Part shown: positions 3,001 to 64,000 of the stretch, piece after piece | Layout: the number at the start of each line of letters is the position of its first letter | Numbering within the stretch: the first letter of the stretch is position 1 | Assembly: GCF_000787575.1 (NCBI RefSeq) | Contig: NW_012236507.1 | Location: 68,253-132,252, forward strand | Source: Acytostelium subglobosum LB1 | Taxonomy: Eukaryota; Evosea; Eumycetozoa; Acytosteliales; Acytosteliaceae | Length of the DNA stretch: 64,000 nucleotides | Reading direction: 5' to 3' | Program-made: the position numbers and the translations under genes | The notes under the pieces: generated by a model | Told to the model about the DNA's origin: nothing | The model's input: the letters and a program-made list of their open reading frames with translations, nothing else | Databases searched by the model: none

Positions 3001-6000
3001 TGAGCCATCCTTGGACTTGACGCTCAGCACAGACAGGATGCTGTTGGCATCGATAAGAACGCACTCCAGTGTATCCATGGTGATTGAGCGAATGTCGGCC
3101 ACGTTGAGGTTGTCCAGCAGAGTCTCAACTATGGTGGTTTGGTCCTTGACTGTCAACATGGTCATAAGCTTGGGAACGATGTTGGGCAGGATAGTCTTTT
3201 GCAACGTGTACACAGTCTTATCATTGTCGACAACGACAGAGTTGGTGATGGAGAGTGCACGATGGAGAAGCTGAATGTGGCCCTTCTTTCTGTTGGACAG
3301 GATGGGTGCCTGGACGAGCTGATCGCCGAGCACCATCAGGACTGACACCTCATCGGACGAGATCTTGGAGGCCTCGAAGCGGCCGAGCAAATCAGTGAAG
3401 TATTTATGACAGATGTCAAAGAAGTATGGCTCGCGGATGGCAGACAGTCCACTCATGAGAGTCGAGCAGTTCTGAGGCGACTCGAGGCTCAGGGCACAGT
3501 TGATCAAGAATGATCCCACAGCTTCCTTCTCCTTGCGGCCAAATGTGTTGTTGTCGGGGTTGAGTACGACTGATCCGACAAAGGACAGGAAGAAGGTGGC
3601 GCTCAGTGTGAACTCGGAAGTGTAGTCAGAGAGCATCTTGACCAGGTTGGCATACTGTACCGGCTCCAGATTGGTGATAGGACGACGGAAGTACTTGCTG
3701 GTGGCGTGGACGTTGTCTGACTCTGTGGAGTGTTCGATGGCTTGGTGAATGGTTACAAGACACTGGCAGACAGCCTCGCGCACCTCTTGATTGTCATTCT
3801 GGAGCATCAAAAGGAATGGGGCCAACAGCTCTTGGGAACGAGCCAGCTTGACAAACAGACGCGACGACAGGAACGATTGGCAGAGTGTCAAGGAAGCAAT
3901 CTTGATAAAGTCTGGCTGGCGGAGATCACACCAGAGCGATGAGAGGAACTTCAAGAGCACGACGTGGTCAGTGAAGTGCTGCTTGATAAGCTTTTGGATC
4001 AATGTCTCGACCAAAGAGGCGTTGGTGGCGGCAGACATGCTGAGCGCGGCCACAAACAAAGTCTTGAGAATGTTGAGCGCGGGCAGTTTGTCAGACTCGG
4101 TGGCGGTCAGCGCCTCCATGAGCTGTTCGGTTGAGATCGCCTGCAGACTGTTGATGATGTTGTTGATCGAGGCCACCAATGTGCCCAATGGGTATTGTGT
4201 GGAGGACAGAACATTCTCCTGCTTGTCAATGTCGGAGCACACGGCTGACAGTGACTCGTATGGAATCGATTGTGTAACGGTCGCTGCTGAGCTAGCGGCG
4301 GCTGCGGCACCTGCAGCAGTTGTGTTGTCCCTTGAGACTGTTGCAGTGCAATGGTTGATGGAAAACTGGACTATAATATTAGATAGTTTGACCTTGTCCG
4401 ACGCTGTTTGAGTGATTGGCGACAGGTTAGTATGAGTGCAACAGCGAGGGAAGGACGAGGACGAGGTGGAACATACCATTTTTCAGCTTGGTGATAGCGT
4501 GGGCAGAGGCGAGGAGGATTAAAATCTTGTCGTTGGTGATCGCTTGTTCATTGGTGTTGAGGATGGTGGAGATGGCGGCAAAGGCCGCGTCGGTGGATGC
4601 GGTGATATTTGTGCCAATGACTTGCATGACACTTTCGTTCGTTTTCAGGCTGTTGTTGAGACCATGCAGCAGTACTCCTGCTCCACTGATGACCTGTTGT
4701 TGTGTTTGTTGTTGTTGTGTTGAAAGCGTTATCAGATTGTCTCTGATAAATTGACTGAATGTGAGTGTGCGCTTGGTGATCAGGAGATGTGGCAGCAACG
4801 CGAGGGTGACTCGCTCGCTCCACTCGGCCTCACTCACAGCGGTGGCTTTGATGCCGCACACAATCTTGACGATCTTCTTCTTGCACTCGACTGGCAGCAG
4901 CTCAGAGTCCAAGCACTGAGCGAGCTTGCGGATGATGGTGTCCTGTGAGACCATATCCTGGAGGAGTGGCAGACCCCAAGCCTTCTCCACGACGACCGAG
5001 TCGTTGTCGACCAACAACTCGCTGACAGAGTCGGCGAATGACTTCCAGTCCATCTTGGTTTGGGCGTTGGCAAGCTCGGCCAGCTGGTCAATGCCCTCGC
5101 GACGGGCATGCACGCTGGAAGAGACGAGACGCAGGAACAGCTCGTTGGCCTTGGACTTTGACAGGAACTTCTGAGCAAATACGTGTGATTGGAACTCGGC
5201 AAGACGATCGGCCACCTGGGTCGGACAGTTTGGATCGGTCAGCTTGGCATTGATTAGTGCTTGGACGATCGAGGGTTCAATGGCGCGGACGATGGCCGAC
5301 ATCAGATCGATATTGAGTCCAGCCTCGGCCTTGAGGTAGCGGCCCAGGAGGGAGGTGGCCACCATAGCCTTTTGCACGTCAGAGGTGGGCAGCTCGGTGA
5401 TATAGAGCATGAGCAACTCGTACGACTCTGAATTATCCTCGTAGGTGTTAATAAGATAGTGCAGAGTCTGCTGAATGAATTGATCCAATGATCGGCTCTG
5501 TCGGTGCAAGTCCAGCAGGATGTCGTTGATGGCTGGCGTGCCCACGAGCATCTCCAGCGTCTGATCAGAGAGCGGGCGCTCAAAGTTTTGGCGTTGGAAC
5601 AACACCAACAGGAATGTGAATGAAGCCATCAGCGAGCCATGGCAGTTCTTGAGCGTTGACCTAATGAGCAGCTCCAACACATCCACCGAGAACTGAACCT
5701 TTGATGCCATGTTGCCCAAAACCATGAATGCTCCGAGCTACAATGAGTGATGGTGATGGAGTGAGTATAGGCTGACCTGTGACGTGTAGCGCCAAACTGG
5801 TACTTACCTGCAAGTCAATGTTTCTGCTGCGTAGCGAGGAGTTGAGACATGGTAGGGCCACACGATTGAAATGTTCGGGGACATTCCTAACTGAACTGAT
5901 CAGATCGACGAGCAGCGCAGTGAAGAATGAGGTCATTGTCTTGGAGAGTGTGGCGTGTGTCTCATACTCAATGATCGTGTTGCACAGCAACTCGACAAAG

Positions 6001-10124: not shown

Positions 10125-11558
10125 TTAATTACCTTTTGTTCTACTTTTTATCTTTAGTTTGTTGAGAAGTGATTGAAATGTTCCTTTGGACTTTGATGAA
10201 TCTTGAGCTGGAGGAGGACGTGGAAATATCCGGAACACTTTATGTCCATCCTCACGATATTGACATAATACATTATGATTGTCAAGTGATCGGAATGTAA
10301 GTATATGAAAGATATTTGTCTGATTAAATACACTGATCTTTGTATACATTGTGTACGTGTCCACATTGGGCATCTTGAGAATCAGACTCTGCATCAATAG
10401 TCTTCGAATTTCCTGTGGTCCACCTGGTGGCACATTAACTCCATTTGCTGAACGATCCTCAAAGTCAACGAATATTGTCAGTTGTTTGATTCGAGGTGTT
10501 GTGGATGGTGCCTCAAAGGGCATGCAGGCATGTGGACCTAGATTATGTGAGGCCACGATCACTTTTTGTAAAGTAGACATTGGTGAGAGTTGTTGTAGGT
10601 AGTGCATCTGTGATGGCAGGTGACCAAGTCGAAGTATTTGTATGTTTCTAGGGAAGGCCACTGGTGATCGTAGCATCTTTCCAAACGATAGCCATGTCAA
10701 GGACTCTGGCAACACTGATGGAAGTATCGGTTGATTATAATAGTCGCCCAATGTGAGTTTGGTGAGCGAACAGGGTAGACTCAATGCCAAGAACTTCTGA
10801 TTATATGTGACACCAAATGAAAGTATCGTGAGTGTAGATGGGAACATTCCAGGTGTGATTACTCCTTGGAATCCATGACCAAGATCCAGGTCGGTGAGCG
10901 AACGAGGTATGCCCTTGGGATCAGTTGGACGTGTTGTCTGATAGCCACCAGCCAGTGTGATCTTGGTGAGGGATTGAGGTAGCTCATCAAGTTCAACTTG
11001 ATGATTGAATCGATTGCTCAAATGAAGTGATCGGAGTGATGTAGGTAGATTCGTCGTTGATATATGTTGGTTGAAGATTACACCAAAGCTTAGGTCAGTG
11101 ATTGATTGAGGTAGCAGTCCCGACGGAATGGGTTGATCATAGCAGTTTCCAAATGTCAGTTGTATGAGATTGGGTGGCAGGACTCCAGGTTCGAGACTCT
11201 TGTTAAAGTCATCGGCAAAGTTGAGTGATGTTATCGATGTTGGAAGTAGACCTGGTTCAAATCTTTTGCGATATACTTTGAGTGTGCTAATGATCAACAA
11301 TGTGTTGGGCAAGTCATCAAGTTTACTATTATTGTCCAATAGTACTGCCATTGTAGTAATTGGTGTTGTTGATTGATCACGTTCATGATTGTTGATGGAG
11401 TTGGAAGTAGATGATGTAGGGACAACAGAGTCCAACTTGCAAGCCAATATCCATAGTCTCTTATTAACAAGTCCGAAACAAGTTACATCCAAAGTATGTT
11501 CTTGTGACTTAAGATGTTTGAATATCTCTTTCAATATGTATTCAGATAGTTGTTCCAT
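10125..11558 (-). CDS. FNIP-repeat F-box-like protein 1
   Basis: Single exon, 477 residues. Residues about 1-45 look like a short F-box-type helical region (LSEYILKEIFKHL, then a Cys-containing FGLVNKRLWILACK). From about 85 to 330 there are roughly ten 22-residue FNIP/LRR-type units with the pattern LPxSLTxLxFGxxFNQPI, for example LLPQSITDLSFG and VLPESLTWLSFG. The C-terminal 140 residues are basic and end in a Lys-rich tail. FNIP proteins are a family greatly expanded in dictyostelids and are usually taken to be substrate adaptors of SCF ubiquitin ligases or LRR-like binding proteins; the target is unknown. The gene shares a 131-base divergent spacer with the dehydratase gene on the other strand. 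Confidence 0.88.
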   Translation of the reverse strand: MEQLSEYILKEIFKHLKSQEHTLDVTCFGLVNKRLWILACKLDSVVPTSSTSNSINNHERDQSTTPITTMAVLLDNNSKLDDLPNTLLIISTLKVYRKRFEPGLLPTSITSLNFADDFNKSLEPGVLPPNLIQLTFGNCYDQPIPSGLLPQSITDLSFGVIFNQHISTTNLPTSLRSLHLSNRFNHQVELDELPQSLTKITLAGGYQTTRPTDPKGIPRSLTDLDLGHGFQGVITPGMFPSTLTILSFGVTYNQKFLALSLPCSLTKLTLGDYYNQPILPSVLPESLTWLSFGKMLRSPVAFPRNIQILRLGHLPSQMHYLQQLSPMSTLQKVIVASHNLGPHACMPFEAPSTTPRIKQLTIFVDFEDRSANGVNVPPGGPQEIRRLLMQSLILKMPNVDTYTMYTKISVFNQTNIFHILTFRSLDNHNVLCQYREDGHKVFRIFPRPPPAQDSSKSKGTFQSLLNKLKIKSRTKGN

Positions 11559-11689
11559 TTTTGATCAAAATTAAAAGTCATCTCATCTTGAGGACCATGG
11601 TGTGTTTTGATCACAAACACCAAGATATTTTTGAATGGGGAGTGTCAATCAATCATTCAACTCAGAAATAATCAAACATATAAATAATA

Positions 11690-13231: not shown

Positions 13232-14670
13232 TCAGTAGCGAACACCATCAAGATCGCCAATTTTTATGTATCCTGTCATGAGTAGACTGTTGCAATCGTG
13301 ATCTTCGAAGTCATGTTTCTGTCGGACCATGAAAAGTATGGTGTTGGTCAGCCTGATGATCTTGGTGCTTCCGCTACAGAAGGTCACGTTGGTGACAGTG
13401 TTCGGCAGGCGTGCCAGCAGCGACTCGACTTTTGCCCGTTGGAAGCATGATTCGACCTGGTATATGCCTGGAGACAGATGCAATGAGTGCAATGCGTAAG
13501 GGAGGTGCTCCACTTGGATCGCATCGAGTTGGTTGTACACTTTGAATGAGTTGGAAAAATTCTGTCTCAAATGGAGTGATGTGATTGACGTTGGAAGTAT
13601 TGCAAGACTGAGGGTTGGAGTAGCATCTCTGACAGTGATCTCAATTGTGTCGATGCTGTCGAGTGGAGGGGAGAGCAATTCGCACCAAGGGATGCACAGC
13701 CTTGTCAGCGAAGATGGCAGGGCCGAGGCGGACAATGCCATTGTTTGAGATGACCTCAGATGGTATCTGACCTGGAGGTCAGCGAGTACTGGAAACGTTG
13801 AAGACGTGATCGATGATATCACCTCTGGGAGAGCATCAATGAGCACCAACTTGGTGAGGCATTGGAAAACGATATTGGATGAATCGAAGGTTCGCACAGC
13901 TTTAGTGATGACAAGACTTTGCAGATACTGTCCACATTCGATAACAGAAGTACACTCATGACCAAGTGTCAGATCTATAACGCTCGGTGGAATGTGTCTG
14001 ATAGGCCGATGGTACATCGATAGGTTCAGCTTGGTGAGTGATCGAGGAAGCACTGCAGCCAGGTCCAAGCCCAAATCGAGCCTCTCCAATGTAAGCTCCA
14101 TGAGCGAGGGTGGTAGCACGCCATTGCCAATGGGTTGTAGAGTGCGGTACGCCCTAAGCTCCAGAGCGGTCAGAGTGTCCGGGAAGTAGTGAGCCTGAGG
14201 CGTCTCATTCATTTGAAGGATGCGCATCACTGTGAGCGGGACATGCTTCATTGACACCAATGGCGCTTCAGAGATCACCAGTATCTTGTCGTTCACTATC
14301 CGACCGAACAGCATATTGATGAACTCGCTCTGCTCGGCCCAAAACGACCACGGTAACATCTGGAAGTAGATAGAGTGGATGCATTGATTGTCCAACAGCT
14401 CTTTATAGAACCTTGGCAGATTGATTTTAAGTGGGCGGTCATAATAGTCGAGGTCATCTGTTGAGTACATGGATGTTAGAGTTAGGGTGTTGGATCAGCG
14501 AGTGTACGTACGTACAGATGCTAAAGTCAAGGTCATACATCTCGTACACGTTGGACGACTCATAGGTCAAATAGTCTCTTGCAGACCAACGCAAGCATGA
14601 CACGATCGACTTTGCTCGGTATCCATCTCACTATCGCTCCTATCACTGTCAAAGGTAGTAGATGTATCAT
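13232..14670 (-). CDS. F-box/FNIP-like leucine-rich protein 2, with apparent frameshift
   Basis: The second exon, 14457-13232, is joined by a 58-base intron (14515-14458, GTACGT donor, CAG acceptor) to an upstream exon. The protein has FNIP/LRR-type units (FPDTLTALELRAY, LPPSLMELTLERL, LPRSLTKLNLSM, LPTSITSLHLRQ) over about 300 residues. Upstream, a frame starting at ATG 14670 encodes a good F-box (LPLTVIGAIVRW, KVDRVMLALVCKR), but it is one base out of frame with the following stretch (RDYLTYESSNVYEMYDL), which does splice in phase into exon 2. So either the gene carries a single indel near 14580, making it a recent pseudogene or a sequence error, or the F-box start is not used and translation starts further down. 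The second FNIP gene in 4 kb, possibly an old tandem copy of the one at 10125-11558 though much diverged. Confidence 0.7.
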
Positions 14671-21841: not shown

Positions 21842-22425
21842 ATGTCTACTAGTCATCAGCAACAATCACAACAAAGACAACAACAACAGAGTAAACAACA
21901 GACAACATTGATATTGATAACAGTAATATTGTTCATTGCTGCTCAGTCATACTTCCCAATCAAGTACTACTACACCTATCTCACTCAGCCACAACAGTCA
22001 TTGACAACAACAACACAACAGACTATTGACGCCACTCCTCTTGCCGAACTATTTGCACTACACGACGAACGATTCGTCTGGCGTATGTTCTCTCCCACGA
22101 CTTCCAACACCAAGTGCTCAGCCACCTACTACTTCCAACACAATCAAACAAAGGTATATACATACTTCATCGCGATCATACACTATGTACACACTAGTCG
22201 ACTAACATCAAGACCAAACAGATCGACACAGATAAACTATACACAAGACAATGGAGCGACAGAATAGAAATGTGCAGAGCACAAGTGATCGAGCGGATAG
22301 CAAGAGACCTGTGTCAAAGGAATCAACGCCAGGCGGTGTTGGTCAGCGTGACAAAGTACACGATCAGTTACGAGGACAATCAAAGAACAAAGTTGTTCAC
22401 GACACATCGACAGGTGGACTGCTGA
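21842..22425 (+). CDS. Small WxMFSP membrane protein, partner module of HTTM
   Basis: Exons 21842-22153 and 22222-22425, giving 171 residues. Residues about 1-22 are Gln-rich, about 23-40 form one hydrophobic membrane segment (LILITVILFIAAQSYFPI), and a lumenal or periplasm-like domain follows with the signature DERFVWRMFSP and a second block RIARDLCQRN. The same WxMFSP signature forms the C-terminal part of the HTTM protein at 57902-60132 (HMFSPSPPK). From memory, bacteria encode such short proteins next to HTTM genes. The end of this gene overlaps the start of the next frame by 175 bases in a different frame; its stop at 22423-22425 is exactly where recognisable HTTM sequence begins. It could therefore be the N-terminal half of one protein separated by a shift. 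Confidence 0.65.
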
Positions 22426-24103
22426 GTGAGTTCATCGTCGCATGGACGCCCTTCAACAGCTGCTTGCTCGTCCTGTTCCGATTCTGCTTCTACGCGATGC
22501 TGGCCATTGACTGCTGGTGTGAGATCCCACGCGCTGCCAACTACTGGCGCGAGATCACACCGTTTAACATCGGTCACCTACCCGCCGTGCTCGACGCGGT
22601 GGTCGCGCCACTCATCGACTGGCATACCTTCCTCGTGTCCCTTGGCGTGTGCGGAGTGTTTTCAATCCGCATTGCTCTTGGCGTCCATAATCACTTTGAA
22701 CAATACCTGGTGGCCTTGATCAAGGCGTTCCTTGTGCTGTCAAGTCAGACCGACAACTTCCAGCATCACTACCTCATCGTACTCTTGTTGGCAATACTTT
22801 CCACCATCGACTGGAAAAGGATATCGGATGCAAGCGAGAGGAAAGAGTATGTCTACGTGTGGCAGATTAGATTGGTGTTGATCCAACTATCCATCGTTTA
22901 TCTGTGGACTGTTGTGGCCAAGCTACATCCCAACTGGATACAAGGAGTGTCGTTGCAAAGGATGGTCGGACCCGATTTCAAAGAGCTGGTGCACTCGACA
23001 TTCGCCGCCACTCTAGGTACCTCGGTGAATGCGATGGCCATCGTTTCCAACCTCACTATTGTGGCCGAGCTCTTCCTGGCCGTTGCACTACACGTCAACT
23101 TCCTGTTGCCACTGGCACCACTTGTCGGCATCCCAATGCACGTGTCAATGGGCATGTCTGGTCTGCGCATTGGTACCTTCTCGCAGTTCATGGTCATTCT
23201 CTACATGTTGGCAACGCCATCAATCATCACCAACAACATCATATCACCATTGATCAGTAGAGTCAACAGACTACATCGATCAATCTCATCAGGCACCAGC
23301 ACCAGGAACATGAGTGACCTGATCAATATGGTACCAATCAATATCTTTATGTCAACAATCAGTGTCGGACTGATCTATCTGCTCATTGATCAATTGGCAC
23401 CAATTGAGGCTGTTTCCACACTCAAACAAGTTCTACTCATCACATCGACCATCATCATCGGGCCATCACTCATATCCATTAACCGCAGCCTACAAATTGC
23501 CAAAGACTTTGTAATCCTCATCCTATGCTTCACAATCATCGTTGGAGCATCAATATCAACATCACATATCCGTAGACTCTATGTTGATATGTAAGTATCA
23601 CAATATAATACTCATGGAATAGTTCCATTCACTCACTCATTCACTCACCAATCAATCAATCAAACATCGCTAGTGGAGCACTTGCAATCTCAGCATCCAA
23701 TCAAGAACAATCACTTTATAACTATTCAATTGCAGAGAGAATGATACAGAGGGAAGTTATGAATGATCGATTGTTAAGTGATCACACTGAATACGAGTTC
23801 ATTGGCGACATGGGACTGCTGATGGAGGTTGGCGGCGAGTGGACCAATGCACAACAACTCTACACACGATACATTTCAATCTTTCCAGAGCATCTCAAGC
23901 TTCATGCCGGTCTACTACGAACACTCAATCAATTTGGCAAAGGCGATGAGATATGTCCTCTATTGCCAAACATCATCGAGCGTGCTCAGCAAGCATCACA
24001 AGTGCACTGCCACAGCATAGATTGCCAACGTACCAAAGGACATGCCGAGTATCTAACAAAGATGTCTCGTGGGTTACTCACAACGTATAAATGCAGGAAA
24101 TAA
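22251..24103 (+). CDS. HTTM (vitamin K-dependent carboxylase-like) membrane protein
   Basis: Exons 22251-23590 and 23674-24103 give up to 589 residues. The HTTM domain, a multi-span membrane domain related to gamma-glutamyl carboxylase, runs from about residue 58 (SEFIVAW...LVLFRF) to about 330. It includes the typical LWTVVAKLHPNWIQG motif and a G-rich HVSMGMSGLRIGTFSQF segment. Several more spans follow, then a C-terminal soluble part with TPR-like helices (GGEWTNAQQLYTRYISIFPEHLKLHAGL). The first 57 residues of the long frame are encoded by DNA that also codes for the previous gene and look like shadow sequence, so the true start is uncertain: ATG 22251, an internal ATG near 22497 (which would cut the first span), or fusion with the preceding gene. 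True carboxylation activity is not implied; vitamin K carboxylase itself is a metazoan enzyme. Confidence 0.75.
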
Positions 24104-32703: not shown

Positions 32704-35700
32704 ATGGCATCAACAACTGTATCAAGCAATGGCAGTGGCAGTAGCAATGGCAACGGCAACAGCAACATGTCCAACAGTGGCAATGGCAATAGCAGTAGCA
32801 AAATGATTACACCATTTCCTTTTTACCAGGAGGATGACGATTCACAAATCATCTTCCTACAGAATATCAACAGAAAGGATGGCCTGTCAGCCATCAAGTG
32901 CTGCAAGCTCTCAAAGCTCATCGAGAAAATGACTCAGGCAATATCCTTTGGTACATATTATGGGATGTCATGGACGCTCGCGAGCGAGGTCGACTAGACT
33001 AACACCGAAACATACCAATCAATCAAACAGATTATTTCTTCTCGTCAGCCTTCTTCCTTACATTCCGAGACTTCACGACACCATTAGAGTTAATTCGTCT
33101 ATTGATCACTAGATATACAGGTCCTCCAGTAGGCAGTAGCAAGGATCACTTGAGACTGTTTGAGATAGAGGTCGAGATTGTACAGGAAAAGTATGTTATC
33201 GAGGCTGGGCAACATCTTGGCGTGCGCCACATCCATTGACGCTAACACGGTACACCACTGCCACACAACAGCGTTATACACTTGTTTAGACAATTGATTG
33301 GAACACTAAATGAGAAGGATTTTCAGAATGCAGAGCTATGCAATGTGTCGATAGAGTTCCTTAATACACTGAGCGAGGATACAAAGAATGAGTTGTTCTT
33401 GATGTTCTTCAAGGCAAGGAAACTTACAAAGTTGGAGCCTCCACGCAATGGTGCACATCGTCCACACACCAGCACAAGCATCTCCAACGCTGCCTCAACG
33501 ATGAGGTTCTCATTCAGTGTCAACACCAAGGAGGAGCCCGTGCAGAACGTGCTGACTGGCCTGCTCAATGGTGGCGCGCCACCCGGCACCACGTCGTCTG
33601 GCAGCGGCGTGCACTCGCCCACGCTCGATCATCCAAGCAGGAGCTCCAAGATGAGCAATCGCAGTGGATTCCGTTCAAAGACGGGCAGCAGCAGTGCGGT
33701 GAGTGGTGCGCACTCCCCGTCGCACTCCTTTGGCATCATGAGCAGCAACAATGGCAGCCAATATCAGAACAACGTGGACGAGGAAGGCTTGGAGAGGGCG
33801 GCCTTCCCACCAGAGATCATTGCTCGCGAGCTCACCATCATGGAGTACGAGCTGATAACATCGCTGACCACCAACGAGTTCTCCCAAAAGGCGTGGACCA
33901 AGGAGCATCAAGCAGCCAACATACAGAACTTTATCATTTGGTTCAATAGAGTAAGTAGACCTAGGAGGGAGGATGAGGAGGAGGACTGGACTGGCGACTG
34001 ACAGTCTGCTGCCTGCTTATAACACAAACAGATAGTCAGTTGGGTATCGACCAAGATTGTATCGAAGGAGACACCTGAGGAGAGAGCAGTGATCATCGAG
34101 TCATTCATCAACATTGCCAATCACGCGAGAGAACTAAAGAACTACAACTGTGTCATGGAGATACTTGCCAGCTTACACAACTCTGCCATATCAAGATTGA
34201 AGAGCAGTTGGGCTGTATGTATCGCGTCGGTGGTTGGACTGGATGCCCTTGGACCACCTTCTTACCTTGACCCCTCACCCCTTTAGCTTGTCTCACCAAA
34301 GGCCAACGAACTATTCACACAGCTTAACCAGCTGATGAGCCCAGATATCAACTTCAAGGCATATAGGAAGCACTTGACATTGGTGTCGCCAAGCGAGCCA
34401 TGTATACCTTACTTGGCATTGTTCCTCACGGACTACACCTATTTGGACGAGTCCAACCCATCACATCTCAACAATGGCACAATGGTCAACATCGAGAGGA
34501 TCTACCTGATCGGCAACCGAGTCCAAGAGTTCTTCCAGTTGTTCACAAACTGCAACTACGCCTACCAGTCGAATGCCCTGGTGCGCGAGGCCATCCTCGG
34601 CGAGAAGGTCTGGGACGAGAACGAGTGTTTCCGCGTGTCAAAGATCCGCGAGGACACGTCTGGCAGCTCCAGTCCATCCTCACCAACGCCCTCATACACA
34701 AGCAGTAGCTCGAGCTCCATGTCGTCCTCGTCGTCCGTTCAGTCCAAGCGCAGGACGACCGCCACCAACAAGTACCGCATGTCGTTCACGGGCAATGACA
34801 TTGCACCATCGATCGCTTCGTCGCTCAGTGAGCGCGACTGGCACATCCTCTCGACCAACGCCACGACACTTCGACACAAGAAGGGCAAGAAGATCCTGCA
34901 CATGGGCGAGGTCAACCACAACCTGTATCGTGTGATGGCTGGTCGCATCAAGTTTGAGAACAACTCCCCAGAGGAGACACGTTATCTCGAGAGTGGCGAC
35001 ATCTTTGGCGAGGACAGCTTCCTGTTTGATCATCCAATGCTGTTCAATGTGTACAGTGACAGCGATGACTGTGAGATCATGGAGATTGAGAAGTCCTTCA
35101 TCTTGTCGCTGTTTGCCAGTGAGCCAATCTTGGCGGCGACCTACTACAAGCACATTGCTGTCTTGATGGCGGATCGCGTCAAGTTTGTACTGTCCAGCAA
35201 TGATTCTCCTGTGCTAAATGGAGCCAACGGTGTCGGCCTCCACCACCACCTGCCGTCGAGCTCGTTGGCCCAAGGCACATTCATCGCCAGTACCTCACCA
35301 AACACTCCTCAAGGCATCAGCCACTCGTCAAGTCAAAGCTCCCCCAACCTCGGCTCACCCAAGATCACGTCGTTGTCCTCTCAGTGGTCGACCACCAACC
35401 TCATGGGCGACAAGCAGCGTCGTTCCTCCGTCCTGATACCCGAGCCATCGTCGACGGACCTGCAGCGTCTTGGTGACGACTCCAAGTTCCGCTCGACCTT
35501 TGGCCTCGGACCCGAGGAGGTGATCATCAAGAGCTACTCAAGCAAACACAGCAACACCACCGGCACACTATACATTACCAAGCATCATCTATGCTATGAG
35601 GGCCGAGTGTTTGGCATCAACAAGACCAAGCTGCTGCCCTTTGGCAAGATTTCAAAGATCCTGCCCGAGAAGGGCCAGGTCAGTCTGACCATGAGCGACA

Positions 35701-36383
35701 AGATCAAGAAGTTCAGCTTCAAGAGCCAGGAGGAGCTAAGCGAGGCCTATGGCATCATGACCAAGATATGGAAGAATCACTTTGGAACGGGTGCAGTGCG
35801 CTCGCCACCTCCAAAGACCCAGCCACATCAGCAGCACCACGCGACACCTGGCGTGACGCCACCCACACCGCCTCGCGTTGCAAAAGCTGGTCAGCAGGCC
35901 GGCGAACTGTTTGCCGGCGTGCCCGACCTGCCGAGCAAGGAGGAGTGGGAGCAGATTCTAAAGGGCGCCAAGACGCTCAAGTTCAAGAAGGGCGAGATCC
36001 TGGTCGTGGAGGGCACTGAGTTCAACAAGATCTTCCAAATCGTCAAGGGCGAGTGTACAATTATCAAGGGTCTCAGTCTGACAGACATCAACGCCAACAT
36101 GAACCCTCCAATGATCTCGTCAATTGGTCTCAACAAGAATCTTACGTCACTGGCCAAACTCTCTGCTGGACACATCTTTGGAGAGATGAGCTATCTGCTT
36201 CCCAATGGTTCAGCCATCTCTGTTGTTGCCAGCAGCGAAGAGCTGGAAGTTCACACAATCGAAGGTTACTTCCTCAACATTTTCCTCAAGTCCAAGCCAC
36301 TATTGGCGCCCAAGTTCTACAAGTATCTAGCATGTGTACTTGAATCACGCGTCAAACAATATCGACAGGCAATTGTACTTTAG
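32704..36383 (+). CDS. gbpD: GbpD: RasGEF, two cyclic-nucleotide-binding domains, GRAM
   Basis: Exons 32704-32950, 33031-33190, 33272-33950, 34032-34214 and 34287-36383, giving 1121 residues. Domain order: Ser/Gly/Asn-rich start; RasGEF-N (about 55-150, FLTFRDFTTPLELIRLLITR); catalytic RasGEF (about 315-560, PPEIIARELTIMEYELI, then SWVSTKIVSKETPEERAVII and EPCIPYLALFLTDYTYLD); first cNB domain (about 590-730); GRAM (about 835-915); second cNB (about 980-1110). This is exactly the order of Dictyostelium GbpD, a Rap1 exchange factor controlling adhesion and polarity, and of the C-terminal part of GbpC. In both cNB domains the phosphate-binding cassette starts with FGE but lacks the usual arginine (FGEDSFLFDHPMLF and FGEMSYLLPNGSAIS), so strong cyclic-nucleotide binding is doubtful. 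It is somewhat shorter than the D. discoideum protein. Confidence 0.93.
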
Positions 36384-48983: not shown

Positions 48984-51900
48984 ATGTACATAATACAACT
49001 ACTACTTCCACTACTACTGCTGTCAACTTGGTTGCCAACCTACCTTGCCATCACATGCCCCTACAACAACTATGATTACAATTTAATGGACTCTCCTGTC
49101 CAGGCCTCCGCTGGCTTTGCCTGTAATAATGTGGCCACATTGTCAACAGAGCTCGAACAGAAATGGGTATACGACAACTTGTTGAAGCCCAAGTCCATCA
49201 ACCAGGTGTGGTTGGGCATTGACTCGGTAGACGGTGGCATAACCTTTGACTATATCTATTATGACTCGGCATCAACTCTTTATAGACAACAGATGTACAA
49301 CACACGTTTGGACACATGCACACAATACTGTCCGTGGGCTGTCAATCGACCGGCGATGGGTGGCCGTCCGTATGGCCGCTGGCAAAATGATGTCTTCATC
49401 CTTGACACGCAGCCCGCTACCTCGAGTTTCCCCTACGTCTGTGTGGCGCCACCTCCTCGCATAGCATTGATGCTAAAGAACATTGTTGGCACATCTGGAG
49501 GCATTCTCCAGTTCACATTGGACACCATCAGCAACTCCTACAGCTCAACACAGAAGCTCACTCGTGTGAGCGACAACACCACAATCGAACTGGGATCCAC
49601 CAACGACATGACCGCAAAGATACCTCCTGGAGCCGGAACCTATATCCTCACAGTAACTCATGTTGCTGGAACCTCCACATCAATCTTCCAATATGAAGGT
49701 ATGGTTGTATGATCACCCACATCTGGAATCATTCCACCCACTCACTCACTCACAATCAATCAATCAAACAGCCCCTCATATATCTGATATCTGGCCAAGC
49801 TTTAATAAGAGCGACATTGTGTACTTGCGTGGAAAGAACTTTGGACCTGATGCCAGCAAGATTAGTGTAACTTTTGGCGATCAGACCAATGTTGTGAGAT
49901 GCCTTGGCGTGTCCTTGTACACGATGATGATCAACACGACCACACCATATGAGTACTTGTCATGTCAACTGGAGAGGTCCATTCAGTATACATCAATGTT
50001 CCCAGTGACTATCGATGTGGATGGAGTATCCCATCTCACAAACAGATGTCGCTTCATAGACTCGTTGTCCACAACTACCAAGTATCCACCAGTGTTCTCC
50101 GTGTCCGACATACCCCTCAACTACACTAGTGCCATCGCGTTATACAACGATGGTAATCGATACCTTGGAGTCATAACAACAAAGTCTTCCTTTGACATTG
50201 TACGCCAAGTATATAGCTCTGCAGCCATGGTCGTGGAGGGCATGTACTATAATGGTACCAACATGGTCTACAGCGAAGGACCATTTAGCAAGCAGATTGT
50301 GGCACCATACACCTCATCCCAAGTACAAGGATCACAAAACACCTACTACACACTCAATCTTCTGGATGCCTCACTAGGAGTCTTGTCCATGTCCGACACG
50401 ACCTACCCCTATCTTCTCCAGAACTCCACGATCACACCTGGTACCACATTCCTTGACTTCTTCCGAATCAACTGGAATACCACGGCCACGCCAACTACTG
50501 CCGGTGTCCTCACAATCGCCATATATGGCCTTGCATTACCATTGACCTCTTACCAAATCGAGATTATTAACAACACTGGTATCATCACCAACGGGCAGCC
50601 TCAAGATAACTACATATTTTTCAACATAAAACCAACTCTATCACCTATCAACATTGGAATACTCCTATCCAATACTCAAGGTCAATACAGTCTCAACTTC
50701 ATCTATGGTATTCCACCTACACCATGTAAGTCACCCTTGGCCTCATCCAAACTCCCACCCCAACCCTAACCCTAACCCTAACCCTCGCCCTTGACCCAGA
50801 CCCTGTGATCATAGATTACCATACCAATACTCAATATAATCAACCAGGAGAGGTAACAGTGATTGGATTGAACTTCATTGGAATAAGTTTGGTGACCATT
50901 GGCAATGTACAATGCAGTCCAGTACAACCTGTCAACTCAACTACGTTCATTTGTTACTTCCCAGCCAGTGTGACCATTGGCAACGAGGCACTACCCATCA
51001 ATGTAACATGTGGTGGTCTCTCAAATGTAGCCTACATCTTTTATTACAAGCAGACGGTACAATGTCCTGGCACCCCAGCATGCAGTGGCAACGGACTGTG
51101 CAACACCAACAATGGACAATGTACATGTAATACCGGCTACTCTCTACAGAACTGCTCTCTCAAGGCTGAGGTCAACCCGACACCACCACATGCTGATGGC
51201 AATGGTACGGCAGTGTTGCCATCTGGCAACTCGAACAACGACCAATCATACTTGGTCAACATCAAATTCCTACGCGAGTCTGATGAACAAGGTCGCCAAA
51301 TCAGATTGCTAAACATGTCCACGATCAAATGGAAGACCACCCCATCGATCAACAATATGTCGTACCAGTTCCAGGGCACGTTCGACAATGACAATTGTTC
51401 AGTCAACCTGCAAATGGACGTCTACAAGGACAACGCCACAATCAAGTTTGCCGGCGAGTCCATATTCATCCCGGCCAGTTCAATCAAGTTCACAGTGGAG
51501 ATTAGCGACTGGAAGTTTGCCAACCAACTCAACATGCTTGAAGTGATCATGGCTACAACATCAACAGCGGCTGATCAACAATGCAGGCCACCAATGACCA
51601 CTGACTCGGATGGTCCTCCAGGTAGTTCCTCATCAGCCTCATGGCTCGAGCTAAAGTCTGGAGGCACAGTGCTCTCGGCTCGCTACGCCAGGTATCTCTT
51701 GGTCAATGACAGAATCACTAGAAGCAAGGTCTTGCTTTTAGATCCAACAACAAACGCGATGCTATACGGTGCACTTGGCACAGCCGGTGACGCCAACTCA
51801 ACATTGTTGACATCAATCCATGTACCATACTTCACCAAGACATGTACAATTGATCCAAGCTTCCAACTTTTGTTAACTGATGATGACAATAATCCTGGAC

Positions 51901-52097
51901 AGCAATGTGGTGGCAAGAGCAGCACTCAATCAAATGATCGTTGGAAGCTACCTGTGATCGTAGTGTGTACAATTGTAGGAGCATCAATTCTGGCTGCAGT
52001 CATGGCAGTATTAATCAGAAGCAGACTCAAAGGAAGAAGATTACATGATGTCATATCATTCAAGATGAAGCCAAAGAGGAAAGTGTACAATGAATAA
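48984..52097 (+). CDS. C-type lectin/TIG/EGF type I membrane receptor
   Basis: Exons 48984-49698, 49772-50725 and 50800-52097, giving 988 residues. The start is ATG 48984, whose first 22 residues form a signal peptide (LLLPLLLLSTWLPTYLA). A C-type-lectin-like domain follows (about 25-155: VWLGIDSVDGGITFDYIYYD, GRWQNDVFILD, PYVCVAPP). An IPT/TIG-type beta domain lies near 240-330 (PHISDIWPSFNKSDIVYLRG). A second TIG repeat is at about 560-640 and an EGF-like domain at about 643-675 (TPACSGNGLCNTNNGQCTC). A beta-rich stalk with many N-x-S/T sites follows, then one membrane span (about 942-965, VIVVCTIVGASILAAVMAVLI) and a short basic tail. TIG/EGF receptors of this plan, such as the Tgr proteins, mediate cell-cell adhesion or recognition in dictyostelids; this ligand is unknown. 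Its second intron carries a telomere-like repeat. Confidence 0.88.
50764..50793. repeat. Telomere-like hexamers inside an intron
   Basis: In-register CCCTAA, CCCTAA, CCCTAA, CCCTCG, CCCTTG, ending six bases before the exon (acceptor ACCCAG). The tract forms the 3' half of the 74-base intron 50726-50799 and so supplies its pyrimidine-rich region. Confidence 0.9.
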
Positions 52098-56607: not shown

Positions 56608-57901
56608 TTGTGATTATATTTATATATTTAGTATTGGTTGTTCAATCAAGGATATGAGTGATTGTGAGTAGTATTACAAGGGGGTTGAATGAATGATTGA
56701 TTGATTGATTGATTGATTGTGATTGGATGATTGATTGTTTGATTGCTATATGGTACGAATATTATTATGATGTACTATGTAGTAATTGATTATTATTATA
56801 AGTAGGAGATAGATAGAAGATAGGTTGACGGGTATCCTTTACAATTCACTCGAATGATTGAATTGAGTAGTGATGTATGTGAGTGTGGGTGAGTAGTGAT
56901 GTGATTGTAGGGGGTAAACCGAACGAAAAGGTATTGACTGCCTTGTGTATGATTGTGTGAGTGTGTATCTGTATGATTGATTATATATTTGTTTGGTAGT
57001 GATACAAAGAAAAAGGAGGGAGGGCTTTGGTTATTTGAATGTGACTACTTGTGTTGTTGTTGATGATGCTGACAATGACTGTGATGGTGCTGATTGAAGA
57101 TGGACCGTATTGTTGTTGGTCCCAAGACAAGTTGTCTTGTCTTTTTTGTTGCGTTGTAAACACACCAAATGCACAATGACCCAATAACTCGTACAAAGTA
57201 ATAAAGTATCTTTGTTGGGGATGAATGAAAGAATGAATGTTTTTTGATCAAAGTCTCTGTTGTTGACTTTGTTTTGTTTTGTTTTGGTGAGTCCACCCAA
57301 CAAATGTTTGTTTGCATACACACACGCAGATCGAAACTTTGCAGATGAGCCTCAAGCTCCACAATTGGGGCATCTAATCAAAGGACCACAATGTTTTCCG
57401 GATCGACGATCTCATCAGACTTTGTTTGTTTCGATCGATTGATGAACTCAACACCATCATACCTATGGCCACTTCCAATCCATTAATACTCTAATAACTT
57501 ATTATAATATTTATCTGTCGGTCATTCAAGTCACATAATATGTTTCCAAATCAATACAACACACCATGTGTGTATGTGTGTGTATGTGAGTCGTTATTAT
57601 CTGTATGATTTGTGGTGTGGGATAGATAGAGATAATGAATATGTGTGTGTATGTGAGTGTATGTGAGTGTGTTCACACTTCACTGATATATCTTTGTAAA
57701 TCCAACATGTCAACATGTCAATGTTCAAGAGTGTCACTTGTAGGACAATACATAGATTCCATATACATTGGTAACTACTTAAATACTATCTATTATCTAT
57801 CTATTATAATATATAAATATTTTGAATGACAGATTAATATTATTATAATCAAATAATTATTATTATAATATTTACCTTAAATAATTTAGTGTCCAGCAAA
57901 G
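56608..57901. other. 1.3 kb divergent spacer
   Basis: Divergent spacer between the F-BAR/RhoGAP gene and the second HTTM gene. It is AT-rich, with a TGAT run at 56693-56719, GT runs at about 57565-57585 and 57641-57672, and AT-rich promoter-like DNA before 57901. I see no RNA or protein gene. Confidence 0.5.
56693..56719. repeat. (TGAT)n tetranucleotide run
   Basis: About six tandem TGAT units upstream of the F-BAR gene, complementary to the ATCA runs found elsewhere in the window. Confidence 0.75.
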
Positions 57902-60132
57902 ATGGGATTTGCGACTGCTCAGACTTCTGTTGGAAAACAGCCAGCTAGCTATAAATTATCAAATGGAATAATCCCATCCATATCGATAACACCTTCAAAG
58001 GTGTGGAGAAGAATAGTGATGATGGGAGGAATGGACTTGCGATCCATATCACTTTTTAGAGTACTGATGGCATTATGTGTCATTGGAGATAATATAGAGC
58101 GAATGACTGATTTGACAGTGCACTATACCGACGAAGGAGTATTCCCGCGAAAGTTATTGGTGTCACACTATGTCTCCAACTACTTCTTCCCAATCCATCT
58201 CATCAACTCGAGTTGGTATGGACAATTGGCATTGTTCCTAATCCACACGATGTTTGCATTCTTCATGCTGATTGGATATCGCACCAAGAGTATGTCTGCA
58301 CTGACCTGGGCAATGACAGCGTCGCTTCAAGGTTATGTCGGTGTGATTGGTCACAGTGGCGATGTCTACTTCCGAATCATGTTGTTCTTTGCAATATTCT
58401 TGCCAACGGCCGAGTTCTTCTCTGTTGACAAATGGTCATTTATCAACACCAACCAACATAAGGATGAGGATCGCCAAGCTACCACCGCTGGCCCCGCTGC
58501 CGCTTCAGTTCGTTCATCTAGTGGCGATATTCAGACTTCGGACGCCACGATCCAGATTGACAGCAATGATGATCACGTTGGGAATCCACTTTTGGCACAA
58601 CCGACGGTACATACACCGAGGAAGCAACATAATAATCCAGATCGATATCGATACATATCCATGGCAACGTGTTGTGTTCTCCTTCAAATGTCCTGCATGT
58701 ACATTGCATCATTCTTCCACAAGTCGGGTGAGGAGTGGAAGACTGGTGATGCAACCTTCTACGCTATCAGTCTTGACTATTTCCAGACGGATATTGCTCG
58801 AATGGTTCTACCATGGAGGGCTACTCTTAGGTAATATTGGATGATTAACCAACTGTAGGCCTGCTAGTTAATTGAACTAATTCAATCAATCATTCATATA
58901 TGCATAGGTTACTAACAGTATCAGTTGCAAAATGGGAGTTGATTGGTCCAATGTTGTACATATCACCATTCTACACTGACTACTGCCGCTTTCTTGGAGC
59001 ACTTGGATTTATGGCAATGCATCTTGGATTCGTGTTGTTCTTGAAGCTTGGTCTATTCTTCTGGGTTACATTCTTTGCACAGGCAATCAACATGCCTCCA
59101 TTCGTATGGGACACTGCATTTGGATGGATCGAGAACAAGTTGATGAAGGGACAACGTCCTTTGCATATCTATTTCAACACCCAGTCGCCACTTAGTCAGT
59201 ACACTACTCTCATCATGAAGACGTTCTTTGTGTTGCCATCGTGTGCAACCTACTCTCCTCTGGAGCAGATCGCAACTGATGAGCCATCAATGACCGTTGG
59301 TGAGCAGAATACTGGTACATTTGGAGATGATTGGTTAGTGGCCATTGATCACAATGGTATCCGACGAAAGAACTTTTCCGCTTTGAACCTACTTATGAGC
59401 AAGTCTCCATTGTTGTTCTGGTTATCATGGACATGCTCTAGAGTACCACATACATTCTGTTCAGTAATGTCTCGCATTGTACAGTTCTTCAATCAACGTG
59501 GTAAGCAGACTCAGGCACTCTCCAGGAAACAATCGCTCTACATTCGTCGTCGAACATCCAATCGTGGATACTCTCGTGCCGGCTCAATCGTCTCCAATGT
59601 GATATGTGCACTACTCTTCTACTTGGTTCTTGGCTACAATCTGAATATCTTCTCACATCGTATCCCCTATTGGGGTGTGGCTTGGCAGAGAGCGGCATTC
59701 GTCATCCGCTTCGACCAAGGCTGGCACATGTTCAGTCCATCGCCGCCCAAGATGCATTGGTGGCACTCGATTCACGGTACCACCGACAATGGCACACATA
59801 TAGAGTTGTTCAAGAACAATGCATTCCACAAGTTGCACACGGGTCACATCAACCACGATGTCAATCATGATAAGCCAAAGCCATTCGACACAACGTATGG
59901 CAACCATCGATGGTTCAAGTACTGGGAGAATGGATATAATCAAGTCAATTCTGATCCATTACGTCTGGAACTCGGTAGATATATATGTAGACAGTTCAAC
60001 AGTGTACATCTTGGTCATATGCGATTATACACATTCAATGTATACTTTGACTATGAGTACATGAGTCTAGATGGAAGTGTTAAAGGTCCTGCTTCACAAT
60101 CACTATGGCAACATAACTGTTATGAGAAGTAG
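57902..60132 (+). CDS. HTTM membrane protein with DCC-like and WxMFSP modules
   Basis: Exons 57902-58830 and 58908-60132, giving 717 residues. The first half is a multi-span HTTM domain (about 40-365) with many hydrophobic helices (FLIHTMFAFFMLIGYRTKSM, GHSGDVYFRIMLFFAIFLP, QMSCMYIASFFHKSG, then ALGFMAMHLGFVLFLKLG). A Ser/Thr-rich loop of about 60 residues interrupts it. Then comes a segment like the DCC thiol-disulfide domain but with its first cysteine lost (LHIYFNTQSPLSQYTTLIMK). Finally there is a WxMFSP domain (QGWHMFSPSPPKMHWWHSIH) and a conserved C-terminal part (RYICRQFN). HTTM proteins are related to gamma-glutamyl carboxylase and most have no known activity. A second HTTM gene pair lies at 21842-24103, where the WxMFSP part is separate rather than fused. 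Confidence 0.82.
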
Positions 60133-60439
60133 TTATAAGTTAATGTCATTACATTTACTTACCAACTAATAATAAAGATATAAGTTATATTAGATAATGA
60201 TAATGAATGAACGTATGTATACATCAATGCTATTGTTATCTCCTTCTATCTCTTTGTTCGCGCGAACAGATATTTCGACGAAGATGATGATGTGTGACAC
60301 TTATTCCCACCTTTGGTGTCAAGGACCACACCAATCGCACTTTAGCCTTCACTTGTCAATCCGTTCAACATCATACAAAACACATATAACATATATATTT
60401 ATATATATAATTACAATATATATAGAGACAGAGAGAAGA
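60133..60439. other. Intergenic spacer
   Basis: Short spacer between two plus-strand genes. The frame of the next gene is open upstream to about 60197, but the signal peptide starts only at 60440, so this part is leader. Confidence 0.5.
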
Positions 60440-62242
60440 ATGATCAAACATATATCACCACTACTACTATTCCTAGTGGCAACAACATTGCTACTACAAG
60501 TGATTGCTGCACAAAAGACTACACACTTTGTGTTGACAGCACCTTGTGTTGCAACACAGACCTGTCAACCATTCACAGATGCTAGTGTATGGGACGATCC
60601 CAATGCACTGACCAATCCAGAGCAGTATACATTCATTGTTGATCTGAGTGCCCTGACAACGCGTCTCGAACTTGAGATCCTCACCAACGTCACCGTCTCC
60701 AACTTTATATGCACGGGCATTTCAACCTCCATCCTCGCCTTCAACTCAAGCTCTTCGCTAACGTCCGATGCAGGCCAGATCACATTCAATTCGATTCAAG
60801 TCTCGCTTGCTGGCAACTCCTTCTTGGGTGCACCTACCATCAACGTCGAACAGGGCGCTTCAGTCGTATTGGGTGACAGCTCAATGATCAACTCGGTGAT
60901 CAACGACACGCTAACAATTGGCACAGGCTCGACCGTGACACTATTCCACCAATCGTCACTGTTTGCTCTAAACATTAATTCAACAGGCACGCTTAATGTT
61001 GATGATTTCGCCACGTTGTTGGTACTAGGCACAGCCAATCTTACACAGATATCATTGGGATCGACGGGAAAGGGCAACTTCAACGTACTCTACCTCAATG
61101 GTACCAGCAACTCCATGCTTGGTTCAACCACAGTTGTCGACCTGTTCCTCCAAGAGTCGTCCCTACTCACCGTCGGTAATCTAGCCTGTAGCAACGCCAA
61201 CATTGATGTATACTCCAAGATCACTGTGAACAATGGCCAATCATCGATCCGTTACCTGGCCGCGCCTGCCGATCCCACCCTCTCCTCGATCTTTATCGAT
61301 AAAAACAGTACATTTACCATTGGTGGCTTCCTTAGCCAAACCATCACAACCCAACTCCTGATTGGATACGGAGACAACTTCCTCAACGTCAACAACGCAA
61401 CCATCACAGCGATCAACACGACAGAGCCATACAACAAGATCGACACATTTGTCCTGCAGACTGGCGGCTTTGTAGTCTTTGCCAACTGGTTCGACTTCAA
61501 CGGTCAGGTGGTTGTACTGCCTGGCGCCACACTCGACGTGCAACACCACCTCTCTCCAACACTCTGCATCGAAGCCTATGGACAGGTATACATCCATCGC
61601 AACCTCACCTGTGAGCAGGGCAACTACATCCAACATCCACACGAGGGATCGGTGCTCAACCTGGTCGAGAAGCCACTTCTCTTCATATGGAAGCTGTTCA
61701 ATACCGGCCAGATTGTCGTCCAGACCAATGCAGTGATCAGAGGCAACGTTATCTCCAATGGTACCATTGAGATCCAGGCCGATCAGTCGTTGAACATTCA
61801 AGGTTACATCGACTTTATCGGCTACGACTCGCTGCTCCAGATCGATGGCATTGCCCCCAACACCAACCACTATGCGCTAACCGTGCTCAATGGCATTGCG
61901 ATGAACGGAACGTTCAAGTACAACGTGTCCGCACCCCAACTCAACGACGCCGACGACCAGACTTACAAGCTGATGTCAACACAGATCGACTTTTATGGCA
62001 ACTTCTCAACGATTGTTGCCGATCCATCTTTGAGCAATTTCACAACGCTAGAGTACAAGGAGGAGGCCTACTCCATCGAGCTGTTTATGAAGGGTCTTGG
62101 ACACCCTTCTGGCGCTGGCAAGGACTTTATCATCTTGTTGGCCGTCATGATCCCCTTGCTGGTGGTCACCATCGTCCTAACCATCGTCTTTATCTACTAC
62201 AGAAAGAACAAGCAATACAAGTTCTACTCAAGAATCCAGTAA
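60440..62242 (+). CDS. Type I surface protein with parallel-beta repeats
   Basis: Single exon, 600 residues from ATG 60440, chosen because a signal peptide starts there (LLLFLVATTLLLQVIAAQ). The ectodomain (about 25-560) has repeated short units of alternating hydrophobic/Gly/Asn residues (SLGSTGKGNFNVLYLNG, LLTVGNLACSNANIDVYSK) typical of right-handed beta-helix or beta-solenoid proteins, with many N-glycosylation sites. One membrane span follows (about 565-590, FIILLAVMIPLLVVTIVLTI) and a short basic tail (YYRKNKQYKFYSR). Such proteins are common in dictyostelids (cell-surface or matrix proteins), usually without known function. The lack of introns in a long secreted protein is notable but not unusual for the group. 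It converges on the cyclase gene. Confidence 0.8.
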   Translation: MIKHISPLLLFLVATTLLLQVIAAQKTTHFVLTAPCVATQTCQPFTDASVWDDPNALTNPEQYTFIVDLSALTTRLELEILTNVTVSNFICTGISTSILAFNSSSSLTSDAGQITFNSIQVSLAGNSFLGAPTINVEQGASVVLGDSSMINSVINDTLTIGTGSTVTLFHQSSLFALNINSTGTLNVDDFATLLVLGTANLTQISLGSTGKGNFNVLYLNGTSNSMLGSTTVVDLFLQESSLLTVGNLACSNANIDVYSKITVNNGQSSIRYLAAPADPTLSSIFIDKNSTFTIGGFLSQTITTQLLIGYGDNFLNVNNATITAINTTEPYNKIDTFVLQTGGFVVFANWFDFNGQVVVLPGATLDVQHHLSPTLCIEAYGQVYIHRNLTCEQGNYIQHPHEGSVLNLVEKPLLFIWKLFNTGQIVVQTNAVIRGNVISNGTIEIQADQSLNIQGYIDFIGYDSLLQIDGIAPNTNHYALTVLNGIAMNGTFKYNVSAPQLNDADDQTYKLMSTQIDFYGNFSTIVADPSLSNFTTLEYKEEAYSIELFMKGLGHPSGAGKDFIILLAVMIPLLVVTIVLTIVFIYYRKNKQYKFYSRIQ

Positions 62243-62435: not shown

Positions 62436-64000
62436 TCATGAGATGGCCTGGCCAGAGTGATCAGGAGACTGATGGATCGGGTCCAATACATACACATCCA
62501 TGTTACCCTTGCCCTTGATGTCCATACAGTACTTCTGGAATGAGCTCTTTCTCTTCAACAATGAGAAGGTTGACTCGCTTACGCATATCTTATTGGGGAA
62601 GCCAGAACTTTCCATTCGACCTAAGTAATGATTGATAGAGTTAGTGATTGAATGATTGAGTGGACTACCAATCCTATACTTACTGGCAATATTAACGGCA
62701 TCTCCCCATATATCGAATGAATATCTCTTCTTACCAATGATGCCTGCTATAGCATCACCAGTGTGGATACCGATTCGAAGATGTAGATCGTATCCATATT
62801 TTTGATTAAAGTATTCCACCATCTCCAACAGTTTGGATGCAAATATAACAGCCTTGTTGGCGTGGAATATTGTACGCTGGTTTTCATCGTTCTCGTCCAT
62901 GTCCTCCAGCAAGTCTGGAGACACAAACTTATAATCTACACAATGCCATTTAAGGCCGCTAACAATCATATCTAGTGGATTGATGTTGTTGTTTGTTAGT
63001 TAGTTGTGGATTCGATCCAAGTTGGTCGATTGATCTAACATACATGAATCACCTATTGTCTTGATCTTTTCCAGGTTCATCGATTCTGATAGATCATCAA
63101 ACAGTGAGTATAGTCTATTCAACATGGTTACCAATTCCTTTGGAGTGAACTTTGGTGCCATTTGAGTAAAGTCTACAATGTCCGCGAATATAATTGTAAT
63201 GCCAGGACATTCCTCTGCAATATGTATATCACCTTGTTTCATTCTTGATATGATTGCTAGTATATAATTGGATTAAGTATTAGTGATTGATCAATAGGTT
63301 GATTGATTGAATGGGCTTACCAGATGGGAAGATTGAGTTGATCAAAGAGTCTGACTTCATCTTCTCTTTGGTCAATGCTGATGATAACTTTAACAACTTG
63401 TCTTTAACTCTTTGGTGAGCAATCGATGTGACTCCAATTAGCAAGAAACATAATATCAAGCTGAACATTGATATACCCTGTGATTGACCAACAAATAAAA
63501 GAATGGGGATTAGTATTGGTATAAGTATTTCAATGGACAATGTAACACTTACAAATGCAATGAATAGATTACTGTTGCTTTTGTCGTAACCCATGTCCAT
63601 GTAATGATATGTTACTGCAAACATTCCAGTGTAATGTAGAAGACATACGGCCATCGCCATGACCAGTGATGCCATGAGGTGCTGAACGTGGTTACTGGAT
63701 GTTCCAAACAGTGATATGTACAGTGACAATGCAGACGCGATCCATGCGAATATGAAAGACAACACGATCATACCCATGTTGTAATGTGCCACAGCATTCA
63801 TACGCATGGCAGACATGCCAGAGTAATGCATTGAGAAGATACCAATGGCCATGAAGAGTGCGCCGAATGTTAGACGAAGTACCAAGTTCCTATCGAATGC
63901 TCTATATGTTGCCCATTGTTGGTGTGGCTTTGGTATCAGCATAGTCTCCATCTCATCCCTGAACAAATCTATCGCAAAACTGTCTTCAATTAATGACTCT
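62436..64000 (-). CDS. MHYT-domain class III nucleotide cyclase, N-terminus beyond window
   Basis: Visible exons (minus): 64000-63553, 63477-63321, 63256-63044, 62971-62684 and 62620-62436; the 5' end is off the right edge. The membrane part has MHYT motifs: GIFSMHYSGMSAM (63831-63814 for MHYSGM) followed by AHYNMGMIVLSFIFAW, then AVCLLHYTGMFAV (63639-63622 for LHYTGM), and one more span. A short helical linker with SLINSIFPS leads into a complete class III catalytic domain: metal aspartates in IIFADIVDFT and TIGDS, purine-selecting Lys in EKIKTIGD and Asp in FDIWGD, and the transition-state Asn/Arg in NIASR. Lys/Asp is the ATP-type pair (guanylyl cyclases have Glu/Cys or Ser). The spliced motif IKTIGDSYMIVSGL is canonical only after splicing, which supports the exon model. 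It should make cAMP at a membrane; the MHYT domain suggests control by oxygen, another gas or copper. The 75-base intron 63552-63478 has no stop but carries a TACTAAT branch site. Confidence 0.88.

Follow-up and report, generated by a model that had tools for sequence, protein, structure and literature searches.

The right end of the 64-kb window (the whole stretch of DNA analysed here) carries a gene whose predicted product joins an MHYT membrane domain, through a helical linker, to one complete class III nucleotide cyclase domain, and the presence of this fusion was well supported by the sequence. At a rough probability of 0.55, we propose that the protein is a membrane adenylyl cyclase homodimer switched by carbon monoxide (CO), oxygen (O2) or nitric oxide (NO) at copper held by the MHYT domain. 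Cyclic AMP (cAMP) serves social amoebae both as internal messenger and as secreted signal, and a cyclase with a gas-sensing membrane part would, if the proposal is true, connect gas level with cAMP directly and in a manner that can be tested.

Gene model and domain content

The gene lies on the minus strand at 62436–63999 of the window. The coordinates of the first-pass annotation were correct: the stop codon ends at 62436 (minus strand) and the reading frame remains open at the right edge, so that the 5′ end of the gene lies outside the window. Joining the four visible exons yielded a product of 454 residues, and the three introns of 64, 72 and 63 nt were all of the GT-AG type and all joined in phase. 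The first-pass count of five exons is thus to be corrected to four. The features of the gene are as follows.

63321..63999, minus strand: exon 1, 5′-open; MHYT membrane domain and first part of the linker, residues 1–226 (reading frame, donor site and a Pfam MHYT score of 48 bits)
63700..63846, minus strand: best Pfam MHYT stretch, residues 52–100 (Pfam search)
63814..63831, minus strand: motif MHYSGM, residues 57–62, corresponding to bacterial repeat 2 (69.7 bits, repeat-2 profile)
63622..63639, minus strand: motif LHYTGM, residues 121–126, corresponding to bacterial repeat 3 (43.3 bits, repeat-3 profile)
63257..63320, minus strand: intron 1, 64 nt, GT-AG (splice sites)
63044..63256, minus strand: exon 2; remaining linker and start of the cyclase domain (D252, K292, D296)
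62972..63043, minus strand: intron 2, 72 nt, GT-AG (splice sites)
62684..62971, minus strand: exon 3; middle of the cyclase domain (D384, N391)
62621..62683, minus strand: intron 3, 63 nt, GT-AG (splice sites)
62436..62620, minus strand: exon 4; end of the cyclase domain (R395) and stop codon

Splicing of exons 2–4 was supported because a single match to Guanylate_cyc (PF00211) spanned two of the introns. This match covered residues 242–439 and profile positions 5–181 of 183, with a score of 174.6 bits and an E value of 2.1e-51 (cut-off 21.9). The residues that act in class III catalysis were all in place, with D252 and D296 for metal, K292 and D384 for ATP, and N391 and R395 for the transition state, and all reading frames of the gene were intact as well. 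K292 lies in IKTIGD and D384 in FDIWGD, and this Lys-Asp pair aligned with that of adenylyl cyclases 9 and 5, from which we predict ATP as the substrate and the protein as an adenylyl cyclase. A phmmer search of the PDB returned 54 distinct sequences at E up to 0.001, with adenylyl cyclases 9, 5 and 8 at the top. The complete ATP-type catalytic domain called by the first-pass annotation was thus recovered, and the 454-residue spliced model placed it together with the MHYT domain on one predicted transcript.

The two motifs on which the MHYT call had been based, SMHYSGM and LHYTGM, were found at residues 56–62 and 121–126; M57, H58 and Y59 as well as H122 and Y123 are kept, and the second motif of the usual three is intact. 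Profile searches confirmed the identity of the domain, Pfam MHYT (PF03707; cut-off 21) scoring 48 bits with exon 1 alone and 46.4 bits, in two stretches, with the spliced protein. Against a profile (A3) of 50 bacterial MHYT rows, from which the window sequence was left out, exon 1 scored 100.1 bits, and none of 2000 shuffles (1997 reported) made within 20-residue blocks, which preserves the hydrophobic pattern, reached this value, the best scoring 18.9 bits. These rows came from 60 picked by a three-motif pattern and a redundancy filter, and the genome scan likewise used motif patterns, so the constant motif His in the rows is there by choice.

Compared with profiles of the individual bacterial repeats, the first visible repeat scored 69.7 bits with repeat 2, against 39.4 with repeat 1 and 19.1 with repeat 3, and the second scored 43.3 bits with repeat 3, against 16.8 and 18.3 with repeats 1 and 2. 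The two visible repeats thus correspond to the second and third of the three that an MHYT domain usually has, and spans 1–3 with motif 1 are therefore expected past the window edge. The six-span MHYT domain of the first-pass annotation was at variance with the published descriptions, which give the domain seven membrane segments (PMC11347149, PMC9683572). A fold search of exon 1 gave no PDB match at E ≤0.001, and a profile of 51 MHYT rows, run against PDB sequences, had no hit up to an E value of 0.1. These searches turned up no experimental MHYT structure, and few such proteins have been investigated so far (PMC11347149); a cyclase of the proposed kind would be useful here, its product being easy to measure.

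AlphaFold2 modelling of exon 1 with 51 rows (mean predicted local distance difference test score, pLDDT, of 79.1; predicted template modelling score, pTM, of 0.62) gave helices at residues 37–64, 75–98, 104–127 and 174–223, which fit spans 4–7, with the region ~141–172 unsure. Ahead of span 4, the first ~36 visible residues have a hydrophilic character suggestive of a long loop. Residues 174–223 were modelled as one long helix, with pLDDT of 61 in its first block and 80–96 thereafter. In the simplest reading of the model the bacterial topology would be kept, with the motifs outside and the cyclase inside, and the hydrophobic stretch 144–170, which holds two prolines and is split by the model into two short helices, would be an inserted hairpin. 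At the linker, HNOBA matched with an E value of 0.074, too weakly to reach its cut-off. Similarity to two cyanobacterial class III cyclases started at residues 198 and 207, on exon 1 and ahead of the exon 1–2 junction at residue 226/227. That the MHYT and cyclase parts belong to one gene is well supported, if short of the proof that RNA would give.

Proposed gas control and competing readings

A gas-controlled adenylyl cyclase is proposed because the gene joins an MHYT domain of the type that responds to gas in CoxC with a cyclase layout of the 7yzi type. The latter membrane class III cyclases consist of a membrane bundle, a helical linker and a catalytic domain. PDB entry 7yzi (adenylate cyclase), which we take to be the mycobacterial membrane cyclase Cya, shares the linker and the single class III cyclase domain with the window protein, to which it aligns from residue 197 onward, a linker position that precedes intron 1; its membrane part is presumably not MHYT. 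CoxC is released from its promoter by CO, requires copper for this, is subject to reversal or competition by O2, and passes the change to a cytoplasmic output (PMC11347149).

The window protein would act as a homodimer because its one catalytic domain has the metal Asp pair together with the ATP-selecting and transition-state residues. At the outer face of the membrane, Met, His and Tyr of the MHYT helices would hold copper, and a diatomic gas (CO, O2 or NO) that binds or is exchanged there would shift the last membrane helix, which is continuous with the linker. This shift would alter the packing of the two catalytic domains and change the rate of cAMP production. In a dictyostelid, gas level could then feed into development via intracellular cAMP, which acts on PKA to control encystation as well as spore and stalk formation (PMC5055082). 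The fusion is read from the sequence; homodimer action, copper, gas and cAMP we infer, gas and copper sensing by analogy with the bacterial CO sensor CoxC.

Several observations weigh against the proposed gas control. Repeat 1 would lie outside the window and is not visible, motif 3 starts with Leu (residue 121) in place of Met, and the hydrophobic stretch 144–170 (pLDDT ~50–57) finds no equivalent among the bacterial rows, either of A1 or of A2; if it formed a full span, the motifs would be turned around and would face the side on which the cyclase lies. A tree of 51 rows left the window MHYT on a long branch (2.64), unplaced among the 50 bacterial rows. As to the linker, exon 1 alone gave no reportable match to the two cyanobacterial cyclases, and its tail (residues 187–226) matched a profile of 17 bacterial linkers weakly, at 5.1 bits and an E value of 0.92, a score matched by one of 2000 shuffles (1569 of them reported); exon 1 in full gave a 0.3-bit match to the same profile. 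The leucine, the extra hydrophobic stretch and the long branch would suit an MHYT part that has lost sensing and serves as a membrane anchor and dimer scaffold, with the cyclase set by other inputs such as partner proteins or calcium, and CdgB needs its MHYT domain for membrane anchoring (PMC9683572). However, despite the divergence both visible motifs retain their His and Tyr, the second motif is kept intact, and a Leu at the start of motif 3 is also present in 2 of the 50 bacterial rows; we regard a mere anchor as unlikely, though a serious contender. Sensing of copper itself, of redox state or of a lipid would agree with the copper ligands proposed for the motif and with the single bacterial MHYT protein shown to sense gas directly (PMC11347149), whereas CoxC, together with the phenotypes that link MucR and NbdA to NO or nitrate, favours gases (PMC11347149, PMC9683572) and makes a non-gas signal rather improbable.

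The gene model was built from sequence alone, and the failure of exon 1 by itself to match the two cyclases would be expected if exon 1 and exons 2–4 were two genes. Yet donor and acceptor are in phase and 64 nt apart, the bacterial cyclase alignments begin on exon 1, and its tail beat 1999 of 2000 shuffles against the linker profile; the intact catalytic residues and frames argue in the same way against a pseudogene, and we give either possibility very little credence. Substrate choice rests on two residues only, which leaves room for cyclic GMP (cGMP) instead of cAMP as the product, but K292 and D384 form a Lys-Asp pair that aligns with adenylyl cyclases 9 and 5, in their second domains, which renders this highly improbable.

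Occurrence of the domain pairing and related systems

In none of the 160 distinct prokaryotic MHYT genes examined was a fused class III cyclase domain seen. These genes, defined by a 60-residue core, represented 175 frames at 168 loci, 167 of which had an MHYT frame; the 3′ end was in view for 139 of the 160, and the other 21 were cut by the locus end, where a fusion could be missed. The plasmid loci were taken from 8 of the 137 records with a match, the genome-contig loci were the best 80 of 482 confirmed stretches, and 4 viral contigs were included; further loci came from the phylum of genome G001 (10 automatic loci and 36 regions; 292 genomes, 28 with a match; at least three weak places left out), and from the phylum of genome G003 (the best 30; 120 genomes, 69 with a match). 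Three class III cyclase frames occurred within the 168 loci (those at L045 and L104 being the same gene), all of them distinct from the MHYT frames. When the 454-residue product was compared by tblastn with 72,556 plasmid records, 350 matched, none with one place covering 80% of the query. A bacterial origin of the whole fusion was thus unsupported among the prokaryotic loci and plasmid matches searched, and rare MHYT-cyclase fusions may exist elsewhere. The tree pointed to no donor of the MHYT domain, its smallest starred set with the window sequence comprising 20 rows of several phyla, and a close-relative scan of viral contigs was of no help.

Judged by title and the start of the abstract, none of the papers listed in searches of the open-licence literature describes an amoebozoan MHYT cyclase. 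With the searches covering prokaryotic genes and this literature, the fusion may already be present in other amoebal proteomes, and the domain pairing is undescribed as far as the searches reach. MHYT in eukaryotes is not new in itself, because a list from Aspergillus fumigatus names an MHYT domain signaling protein (PMC3576715). Somewhat short of an even chance, we suggest that the gene represents a eukaryotic adenylyl cyclase whose membrane domain is a copper gas receptor, coupling O2, CO or NO to cAMP without heme, with a pairing perhaps assembled inside eukaryotes because it was not seen among the prokaryotic MHYT genes.

CoxC of Afipia carboxidovorans, an MHYT-LytTR protein, shares the MHYT membrane domain with the window protein and has been shown to respond to CO with copper (PMC11347149). 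It differs in being bacterial, in having a DNA-binding output, and in the Leu of motif 3 and the extra hydrophobic stretch that the window protein has. The bacterial MHYT-GGDEF-EAL proteins YkoW, MucR, NbdA and CdgB likewise place an MHYT input on second-messenger turnover (PMC9683572, PMC11347149), but they are cyclic di-GMP enzymes of another family. The dictyostelid ACA, ACG, ACR, sGC and GCA are also class III cyclases of social amoebae and were set apart from the window protein by their descriptions, not by their sequences: ACA and GCA each carry a pair of six-span sets and a pair of cyclase domains (PMC4758236), and ACG has an osmosensor outside the cell (PMC5055082). The first-pass statement that these cyclases have no MHYT domain agrees with such descriptions. 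Dictyostelium discoideum is credited with five cyclases (PMC4758236); AcgA and AcrA are conserved across all dictyostelid genomes, and Polysphondylium pallidum has two additional acaA genes (PMC5055082). The kinase-cyclases of Acanthamoeba and Physarum, a family with 43 members in Physarum (PMC4758236), are likewise amoebozoan membrane cyclases.

Two of the bacterial loci held MHYT frames of separate interest. At 2698–3903 of locus L003, a CoxC-like Bradyrhizobium MHYT-LytTR protein adjoins carbon-monoxide dehydrogenase genes, and at ~3001–3387 of L005, from a Pseudomonas koreensis plasmid, a 307-residue frame with three MHYT motifs has no gene in the (incomplete) gene table.

Genomic setting

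Bacterial contamination was ruled out by the three introns and the eukaryotic neighbour genes, and the neighbours and short introns suggest a dictyostelid. FNIP, ComC-type and RasGEF/cNMP-binding/GRAM families are dictyostelid markers, and the G+C content of 39 to 53% per 4 kb of the window is high for dictyostelids. Searches with Rfam at gathering thresholds and with ARAGORN gave no matches.

On the minus strand, 10125–11561 encodes a protein with six FNIP repeats (Pfam), and the frame at 13232–14494 is FNIP-like by eye. The plus-strand frame at 50730–52094 has a ComC supersandwich domain; inspection by eye adds an EGF-like stretch and, at the C terminus, a hydrophobic segment. RasGEF (over two frames), cNMP-binding and GRAM domains at 33246–36383 (plus strand), apparently of one gene, belong to a protein that may be a target of cyclic nucleotides within the same window; we take this protein to resemble the Dictyostelium cGMP-binding proteins GbpC/GbpD. 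An HTTM-domain protein is encoded at 22236–23594 (plus strand), and two adjoining membrane-protein frames at 57890–60132 (plus strand), without a Pfam match, are similar to it by eye. A further membrane protein without a Pfam match (60194–62242, plus strand) is convergent with the cyclase gene, with 193 bases between the stop codons.
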